From positions 3,356,839 to 3,420,838 of the forward strand of contig NC_134515.1 of assembly GCF_027942865.1 (NCBI RefSeq): a DNA stretch of 64,000 nucleotides, given 5' to 3'. The first letter of the stretch is position 1. Every line of letters starts with the position of its first letter. The DNA comes from Odontesthes bonariensis (lineage: Eukaryota > Chordata > Actinopteri > Atheriniformes > Atherinopsidae). Shown one piece after another: positions 30,601 through 33,600 of this stretch. The notes beneath the pieces are model-generated. The model had not been told where the DNA came from, did not search any database, and saw nothing but the letters and a program-made list of their open reading frames with translations. A program made the translations under genes and the position numbers.

Positions 30601-33600
30601 GTGAATAGCTCGATGCACTCCTGCAGCTGCACCGTCGTCTGTTGCTGAGGAACCTCCATGCTGGCGTGCTTCACGTACTTCTACACAGGAGCAGAGAGAG
30701 CAGAGAGAGCAAAGAGAGCAGAGAGAGAGCAGAGAGAGCAGAGAGAGCAGAGAGAGCAGAGAGAGCAGAGAGAGCAAAGAGAGCAAAGAGAGCAGAGCGA
30801 GCAGAGAGAGCAGAGAGAGCAGAGAGAGCAGAGAGAGCAAAGAGAGAGCAGAGAGAGCAGAGAGAGCAGAGAGAGCAGAGAGAGCAGAGAGAGCAGAGAG
30901 AGCAGAGAGAGCAGAGAGGGCAAAGAGAGCAGAGAGAGCAGAGAGAGCATAGAGAGCAAAGAGAGCAGAGAGAGAGCAGAGAGAGCAGAGAGAGCATAGA
31001 GAGCAAAGAGAGCAGAGAGAGCATAGAGAGCAGAGAGAGCAGAGCGAGCAGAGAGAGCAGAGAGAGCAGAGAGAGCAGAGAGAGCAGAGAGGGCAAAGAG
31101 AGCAGAGAGAGCAGAGAGAGCAAAGAGAGCAGAGAGAGCAGAGAGGGCAAAGAGAGCAGAGAGAGCAGAGAGAGCAAAGAGAGCAGAGAGAGCAGAGAGA
31201 GCAGAGAGGGCAAAGAGAGCAGAGAGAGCAGAGAGAGCAAAGAGAGCAGAGAGAGCAGAGAGAGCAGAGAGGGCAAAGAGAGCAAAGAGAGCAGAGAGAG
31301 CAGAGAGAGCAAAGAGAGCAGAGAGAGCAGAGAGAGCAGAGAGGGCAAAGAGAGCAGAGAGAGCAGAGAGAGCAAAGAGAGCAGAGAGAGCAGAGAGGGC
31401 AAAGAGAGCAGAGAGAGCAGAGAGAGCAGAGAGGGCAAAGAGAGCAGAGAGAGCAGAGAGAGCAAAGAGAGCAGAGAGAGCAGAGAGAGCAGAGGGAGCA
31501 GAGAGAGCAGAGAGAGCAAAGAGAGCAGAGGGAGCAGAGAGAGCAGAGTCCTTCACATTAAGTCTGAAAATGAACCTGCAGGGATGAACTGACCACATTT
31601 ATCTGTTCTAAATCAACAGTTTGAATATCATCCGTCTGCAGAGCTGACTGCTGATAGGTAAATCACTGACGATAGCTCAGATATCCCAACAACATGGAGT
31701 TTAGTTTGTTTAAAACAACGAGATTTTAACACAAAAGTGTTTCTCTGTGAATCAGAATCCTGATTAAAAATGTTCCTCCTGTCAGATGTGCGTGTTCATT
31801 CCAGATGGCGTCTCCACTGACCTCGGCCTCGTTCTCGTTGTAGAACCTCTTCTTCATGTCCGGGTCCCAGTCGATGGCCACGTACGGCTGAGCTGCAGAA
31901 CCAGACAGAAATACCCATGATGCAACACTTTACTCCTGATGCGTTCAGAACCGTTTCTACAAACCCACCACATTCAGAACCTTTAACATTTTAACAGTTC
32001 TGATCGGGTTACTGATCGGGTTCTGATCACACCGTTTGGTTACTGATTGGGTTCTGATTATTGATCGGTGGGACTCACAGCTGAAGGACACGGCGCTCCC
32101 TCCCTCGCCCATCCCCCTCTCGGTCGTCCCGGTGGAGTTGACGGCCTGGATGGTGAACAGACTCCTCCTCCTCTTGCGACACGCCCTCCTCTTAGCTGGC
32201 TGCTCATTGGCCGGCGGGCTGGGAGAGCAGGCTTCCTCTTGTTTGTCTTCTTCCTTTTCTTCTTCTGTGGTTTCACAGGGTTGCTGCTGCAGCTGCTCCG
32301 CCGGTGGTTCTGAGCTGCCGGCGGTGTTGGTGGCGGCGCCCAGGTCCCCACAGGCGTTCATGTCATCGGCGCCTCCGGCTGCGTTGCCTCCGGCTGCGTT
32401 GCCTCCGGCTGCGTTGCCTCCGGCTGCGTTGCCTCCGGCTGCGTTGCCTCCGGCTGCGTTGCCTCCGGCTGCGTTGCCTCCGGCTGCGTTGCCTCCGGCT
32501 GCGTTGCCAGCGGCGGCGGCGGGCTCGGCCTGGCAGCCGTTGCTGGTCTCTGCGTCTCCTTGCTCCAGTGAGGTCGGAGCGTGGCTGGGCCGGTCCTGCG
32601 GCGGCTCGGTTGTGGAGGCGCTGTCCGATTGGCTGTTTGGAGACTCGTCACTGTGGCTGGGCTCCGTCTGGGAGGGTCCGGCAGGCTCCGCCTCCTCCTG
32701 CTCGTCTGAGAAACACAGAAGAGTTGAACAAAAAGAGTGATTCAGACGTGTTCTGACGACATCTTTTCTTCTTTTTATGGTCACTGAATCGCTCAAAAAG
32801 GAGAAAAGGGAGCATTAAAAAATGTATTCTGTCAGATCACATGATCGATATTTAATTATTATTATTAGGGCTGGGCGAGTTAACTCGTTATTATCGTGTT
32901 AACTTGTTAATTATTTAATGCTAATAAATATTTTATCGCACATTAATGCAGGTTTTATTATTGTAAAAGTCTGTTGCTCACAGGCTTTTATTTTGTAAAA
33001 GTCTGTTGCTCACAGGCTTTTATTTTGTAAAAGTCTGCTGCTGTCTGCTGCGGAACAGGAAAAGAAAGTAATCGGCGGATCCACCAAACATGGAGAAGGG
33101 TACGGAACTTTTACTCGGCCATTTTCATTTTAAAGTTCTTCCAGACGGCGGAGTCGACAGAACCAAAGTCATCTGTAAACACTGCCAAGTTGAATTGTCT
33201 TCTCAGCGTAGTAGTTCCAGTCTAAAATATCACTTAAAGGCAAAACACACAACTGATAGCAGCAAGTCATTCAAGGAAACAGACAGTGGAGCGAGGCTTC
33301 TACATAAAAACTACAGAAAGATGCTGATGTTAAAAGTGTGTTTGCACAACAAATGTTATGGCACTTTCATTCATATGGCAGCACATTTAAAATAAAGCTA
33401 AATGCTTAAAGCTATACGCTACTTTTGGATTCATTTTTGGATTCTGCGTACAAATGAGATTAATCGTGATTAACCAGGGAAATCATGTGATTAATTAGAT
33501 TAAACATTTTAATCGTTGCCCAGCCCTAATTATTTAAATATCATCATCAGTATCGGGGGGTCATGAATACAGAATCCCACCACTCATAACGGCATTAGCT

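Follow-up and report, generated by a model that had tools for sequence, protein, structure and literature searches.

The window, meaning the whole 64,000-nucleotide stretch of DNA analysed, carries a usp11 gene on its minus strand. Joining open reading frames at GT...AG borders gave 20 exons with one uninterrupted frame of 998 amino acids, and an exon 21 containing the stop codon (18840-18658), which lies behind a 9671-nt intron, closes this frame to give a 21-exon model. Exon borders were author-chosen, guided partly by the human USP11 protein, and neither the open frame nor the GT...AG ends are independent tests of the model. DUSP, ubiquitin-like and UCH domains were recognized by Pfam above cut-offs in the 20-exon product. 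A phmmer comparison of the exon 17 peptide with solved chains gave two matches, USP11 (best; 8oyp_A, E 2.3e-07) and USP4. The gene and exon number assigned in an earlier sequence-only reading are therefore sound, the number 17 being correct once a 62-nt exon 6 (40548-40487) is counted. USP11 has been traced to bony vertebrates, and a poly-Glu stretch is found in USP11 of teleosts and some other vertebrates (PMC4624187). The predicted product also carries a poly-Glu stretch, and the gene is probably that of a fish. At the protein level, this copy of usp11 looks intact.

Several other elements lie in and around the gene. Exon 15 contains a perfect 15-bp coding minisatellite (9.2 copies, window 32371-32508) encoding GNAAG repeats, and the last intron (18841-28511, 9.7 kb) consists mostly of tandem arrays with periods of 4 to 140 bp. 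One scan of a 180-aa piece against viral_contigs gave no match. A 0.5-kb sequence is present in five copies (1978-2506, 11662-12187, 29321-29848, 41014-41520 and 53688-54216), two of them inside usp11 introns 4 and 17; the other four are 93 to 97% identical to the copy at 29.3 kb and at least three adjoin CATACTA/AGTATGT arrays, so this is probably a mobile element carrying a tandem array. A Pfam scan of 10 frames in the window gave two hits, both on the plus strand: a Replication factor C C-terminal domain (53294-53677, E 2.6e-16), belonging to a neighbouring rfc gene, and a BED zinc finger frame inside usp11 intron 14 (33072-33392, E 3.8e-08), possibly a transposon remnant. Lin et al. in 2016 reportedly described teleost introns with AC/GT hairpins at their ends, and usp11 intron 3 (185 nt, 42479-42663), with an AC-rich 11-bp array beside its donor and a GT run at its end, has the layout of such introns. 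Array and GT run are paired in its predicted fold, yet 199 of 200 shuffles fold more strongly (z +2.77).

The intron upstream of exon 17 is dominated by a tandem array that runs almost to the acceptor. The features concerned are as follows.

30568..30680, minus strand: usp11 exon 17, 113 nt, starting in phase 0, within the catalytic (UCH) domain (splice model, phmmer, Pfam).
30681..30683, minus strand: acceptor TAG, then AAG, a candidate TAG-AAG tandem acceptor (sequence).
30689..31548, minus strand: 9-bp minisatellite (CTCTCTGCT)n of about 95 units, filling 75% of intron 16 (1141 nt; TRF and unit parse).
30683..31550, minus strand: AG exclusion zone of 868 nt (sequence scan).
31551..31552, minus strand: AG bounding the exclusion zone, 6 to 7 nt downstream of the adenosine at 31558 (A31558) and near enough to be bypassed by the rule in PMC2991248.
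31564..31577, minus strand: candidate cryptic acceptors CTGCAG (G at 31576) and TTTCAG (G at 31564), use of which would give a stop within 6 codons.
31816..31821, minus strand: intron 16 donor GTCAGT, 263 nt upstream of A31558 (splice model).

On the minus strand, successive AG dinucleotides lie at 31552-31551 and 30682-30681 (the acceptor), and the 868 nt between them (30683-31550) are free of AG, within 2 nt of the 866 nt first proposed. Only three adenosines occur from 31548 to 30683, as had been claimed. Their positions are 31024, 30997 and 30950, separated from the acceptor G by 343, 316 and 269 nt; the earlier distances of about 344, 317 and 270 nt are those to the first exon base. The acceptor's own A excepted, the nearest A to the exon 17 acceptor is thus 269 nt away. 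The 869 nt from 31549 to 30681 comprise 395 T, 369 C, 100 G and 5 A, among them the acceptor A and A31549. A nearly A-free, AG-free repeat tract abutting the exon 17 acceptor is thereby confirmed. Its description as an extreme polypyrimidine tract can be refined: 764 of 869 nt (88%) are pyrimidine, but each repeat unit carries a G, so that the tract is a chain of short pyrimidine modules rather than unbroken.

TRF reported a period of 9 and 94.9 copies over 30689-31548, that is, 860 nt of (CTCTCTGCT)n in the usp11 sense. Parsing gave 95 units (one partial unit included) of nine types: 63 are exactly CTCTCTGCT, 13 are CTCTTTGCT, 8 are CTCTTTGCC, 2 each are CCCTCTGCT and CGCTCTGCT, three are 11-nt units and one is partial, while 3 CTCTATGCT units are the origin of the three internal A. 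Head-to-tail units in the range of roughly 6 to 100 bp, with variants among them, make this array a minisatellite. Within a 48-unit segment chosen by eye, units seven apart (63 nt) matched at 0.659, against a shuffle mean of 0.527. This was the highest of 15 lags and was reached by 10 of 500 shuffles, with lags 1, 2, 5, 9 and 11 falling below shuffles; a higher-order repeat at 63 nt is suggestive only. On the other side of the exon (30524-30568), just 32 to 43 nt, depending on which of two TRF rows is taken, separate the donor from an AGTATGT array about 680 nt long, which leaves exon 17 wedged between arrays.

Long arrays are generally hard to assemble, and this one might have been collapsed, inflated or misplaced. 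We regard such an error as very improbable: variant units (TTTGCT, TTTGCC, TATGCT) are interspersed through the array, and non-repeat intron and exon sequence lies on both of its flanks. The assembled length could be wrong, although the array itself is unlikely to be an artefact.

The zone is exceptional for the gene. At the other 19 of the 20 usp11 acceptors, AG exclusion zones span 16 to 83 nt, whereas the 868 nt before exon 17 far exceed the 150 nt or more of AG-free sequence by which long exclusion zones are defined. Eighteen acceptors (exons 6 and 21 lay outside this set) were compared between -50 and -15: that of exon 17 has no A at all, and each of the remaining 17 has 4 to 11. Among 100 simulated 64-kb sequences (order-1 Markov), longest AG-free runs averaged 142.5 nt and reached at most 245 nt. 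Length as such is not unusual for the locus, however, because five longer AG-free runs (4540, 1744, 1288, 1189 and 1083 nt, both strands considered) occur in the window, inside other tandem arrays (TRF coordinates). What is distinctive is that an array directly abuts an acceptor.

The lack of AG is a passive outcome of the repeat unit. The unit contains no A, and its absence of AG needs no selection, since only 1 of the 27 possible single substitutions (T6 to A) creates one; with five substitution types observed (counted by hand), the expectation is about 0.2. Selection for AG-freeness, considered as a candidate, is unsupported given this single AG-making substitution and the few substitution types seen. 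An RNA structure joining branch and AG was likewise unsupported by the fold of 300 nt of the array (30690-30989), which was no better than shuffles (z -0.63, with 46 of 200 shuffles as good).

Under AG scanning, a branch point is expected inside the exclusion zone or just upstream of it. The candidates are few.

30950, minus strand: internal A in TCTCTaTGC, 269 nt from the acceptor G.
30997, minus strand: internal A in TCTCTaTGC, 316 nt from the acceptor G.
31024, minus strand: internal A in TCTCTaTGC, 343 nt from the acceptor G.
31558..31559, minus strand: edge candidates A31558 (ACTTAaTGT, which fits YTNAY) and A31559 (GACTTaATG), 877 and 878 nt from the acceptor G.

At each internal A, the base at -2 is C instead of T. 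TNA motifs in the zone plus 12 nt are confined to the upstream edge, at A31559, A31558 and A31553 (878, 877 and 872 nt). A zone lacking TNA is not unheard of, because about 5% of human introns have no candidate inside the zone (PMC2991248). A31558 is the best of these sites, yet the edge motif is weak evidence, since YTNAY adenosines turn up in 31% of 12-nt segments from the remaining introns, a background that takes in the arrays of intron 20. Nor was it singled out by a U2-pairing score of our own devising, which is unvalidated: A31558 scored 5, the non-TNA edge sites A31563 and A31552 scored 6 and 5, the internal A scored 2, and the best TNA sites at the other 17 acceptors ranged from 2 to 11. 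Its position relative to the bounding AG is consistent with use. Corvelo et al. found branch points to be frequent from 7 to 8 nt upstream of the zone-defining AG, and AGs less than 12 to 15 nt from a branch can be bypassed (PMC2991248); at A31558 the AG follows after 6 to 7 nt, the spacing at which branch points begin to occur.

Collapsing the array to one, two or three units would bring A31558 to 26, 35 or 44 nt from the acceptor, a spacing that holds for any site near the array edge. A31558 may therefore mark the ancestral branch site, and the arithmetic moderately suggests that the array arose by growth within the polypyrimidine tract that first separated the branch site from the AG.

From the sequence-only reading came the argument that the branch-point adenosine must be one of the three internal A, lie in the few bases next to the acceptor, or be more than 866 nt away. 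The part concerning adenosines stands: there is no A closer than 269 nt except the acceptor's own, and in the zone plus 12 nt TNA occurs only at 872 to 878 nt. What it overlooked is a branch at a base other than adenosine. Branching at C, G or U in the last array units would restore a normal distance to the acceptor, and the lariat would then hold most of the array and, if the branch were C or G, resist debranching. The lack of any A but the acceptor's own within 268 nt favours this, and there are precedents. A compiled human set (experimental and predicted) has branch points at C (4.25%), G (2.78%) and T (2.57%), with experimental sets varying widely (PMC9636908), and in rat neuronal projections all 14 mapped free circular introns branch at C (12) or G (2), such branches yielding introns that escape debranching (PMC6879206). 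Non-A branch points are nevertheless a minority overall (about 10% of the compiled human set, PMC9636908), the array units all present one identical repeated context, and most mapped exons with long zones used a distant A (PMC1431707, PMC2991248). We consider non-A branching unlikely, but a serious alternative.

Our preferred interpretation, to which we give a probability of roughly 0.55, is that distant branching at exon 17 has been forced by passive, neutral repeat expansion within its polypyrimidine tract. On this view, an ordinary acceptor would have had its tract lengthened by expansion of CTCTCTGCT to about 95 units in the interval from branch site to AG. The first splicing step would occur at a distant adenosine, either A31558 (YTNAY, 877 nt) or one of the internal A (269 to 343 nt), with U2AF bound to CU modules beside the branch. 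With no AG inside the repeat, the first one that the second step meets downstream would be the exon 17 acceptor. For exon 17 inclusion, such an array is probably neutral or slightly detrimental, and not a selected switch. A long zone usually goes with a distant branch point. Verified cases are -351 for PTB exon 11 and -275 for GABBR1 exon 23, and a branch at -566 is predicted for Fugu PTB exon 11, in a zone of 590 nt (PMC1431707). Against distant branching, 877 nt exceeds every mapped branch distance in the partial texts compared. Some mapped long-zone exons also use weak near sites, and MBNL1 exon 8, with a zone of 134 nt, branches at -51 and -64 (PMC2991248).

Failure at this acceptor would be costly to the protein. 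As claimed earlier, exon 17 is 113 nt long, encodes part of the catalytic domain and shifts the frame when skipped, with a stop 5 codons past the junction. Upstream AGs with G at 31603, 31589, 31576 and 31564 would, if used, give stops within 15 codons; an AAG ending at 31551 would leave 289 codons open before the frame meets the acceptor's own TAG. Use of the alternative AAG at the acceptor would lose one Lys codon and keep the frame. The array may thus cripple the acceptor, causing frequent skipping of exon 17 or use of the cryptic upstream AGs, with usp11 heading towards loss in this species. Long branch-to-AG spacing weakens splicing in fission yeast, where longer spacing needs helper factors (PMC9508853), and repeated losses of USP11 are on record among vertebrates, some fish, reptiles and mammals carrying pseudogenes; because of these losses, tolerance of a handicapped acceptor would be unsurprising (PMC4624187). 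The 21-exon GT...AG model is, however, open throughout (albeit with borders chosen with the human protein as a guide), and recognition of the DUSP, ubiquitin-like and UCH domains indicates no decay at the protein level. We think a crippled acceptor in a gene on its way to loss distinctly unlikely.

CTCTCT is a motif of PTB, and the dense array of PTB-type sites reported earlier is borne out. The 860 nt of array hold 150 CTCTCT (overlapping), compared with six in the 22,777 nt of the other 19 introns (17.4 versus 0.026 per 100 nt). There are also 97 YGCY sites, or 11.3 per 100 nt as against 0.79 in the same 22,777 nt, YGCY being a motif of MBNL (PMC3880588). Predicted PTB and MBNL sites are thus clustered beside exon 17, and length-tuned inclusion of the exon through either protein is possible. 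In a stronger form of this idea, the array would be a platform for PTB (and MBNL) that represses exon 17, skipping would lead to decay of the message, and array length would set the dose of usp11. The stop 5 codons after skipping fits such regulation, as do the findings that PTB regulates every one of the few distant-branch exons studied experimentally up to 2006 (PMC1431707) and that MBNL1 and PTB jointly repress Tpm1 exon 3 (PMC3880588). On the other hand, motif density follows trivially from the repeat unit, and skipping destroys the protein instead of diversifying it. Such a platform seems to us improbable, but PTB/MBNL regulation is compatible with distant branching over a passively expanded array and could therefore be an added layer.

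Engineered substrates and a small number of natural exons have served to ask how far a branch point may lie from its acceptor, and whether the second step can find an AG over nearly 900 nt. Exon 17 of usp11 is an extreme natural case in an apparently intact gene. Array length is likely to vary between individuals, which would allow distance and exon inclusion to be compared inside a single species. The locus further points to a way in which minisatellites could arise from polypyrimidine tracts; because the unit contains no A, growth of the repeat creates no competing AG. If the branch were not an adenosine, each usp11 transcript could release a debranching-resistant intron circle with up to about 95 pairs of PTB and MBNL sites. 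In its widest and decidedly speculative form, the proposal is that a minisatellite has taken over the branch-to-acceptor interval, that splicing proceeds over about 880 nt (beyond the distances in the papers compared) or via a non-A branch in the repeat, and that either way array length would act as a heritable control of usp11 output by way of the frame-shifting exon 17.

The TG/T tract at CFTR exon 9 is known for a length effect. It is comparable in being a repeat at an acceptor whose make-up affects exon inclusion, but is UG-rich and bound by TDP-43, unlike the 9-bp minisatellite. Among the best matches listed in the literature search, there was no paper on a minisatellite occupying the branch-to-acceptor interval and none on exon 17 of fish usp11, and no wider absence is claimed.

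OGDH exon 4b shares a very long pyrimidine tract (megaPPT) and a distant branch, which in usp11 is only a candidate, and its zones are long in most fish examined (PMC7969005). There the branch lies 25 to 46 nt from the 5' splice site (human, frog and sunfish) and enforces mutually exclusive exons (PMC7969005). In usp11, the donor G at 31821 is 263 nt from A31558 and farther from the internal A, outside the limit of about 50 nt or less for an OGDH-type branch, and no mutually exclusive exon was identified at intron 16. Tpm1 exon 3 likewise has PTB and MBNL motifs near the exon and a distant branch, at -175 (PMC1431707, PMC3880588), but has few sites, whereas usp11 has about 95 repeats with a putative regulatory role. 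PTBP1 exon 11 also lies behind a long zone and its skipping leads to message decay (PMC1940037); this is autoregulatory feedback, whereas usp11 encodes a deubiquitinase whose regulation is putative.

The closest resemblance is to exons with a distant branch point and a long AG exclusion zone (PTBP1 exon 11, GABBR1 exon 23, HTR4, MBNL1 and CLK), which share the long AG-free stretch before the acceptor, a branch candidate at the 5' edge of the zone and PTB-type motifs between that candidate and the exon. The usp11 zone (868 nt) is longer than those of human PTB (381 nt), nPTB (438 nt) and Fugu PTB exon 11 (590 nt), the largest values in the available text of PMC1431707. It differs further in being one tandem repeat in which A is almost absent, with a branch that is a candidate and regulation that is putative. 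The arrangement at usp11 exon 17 is thus of a known kind, a distant branch point with a long AG exclusion zone, in a new form that is built from a repeat and very long.
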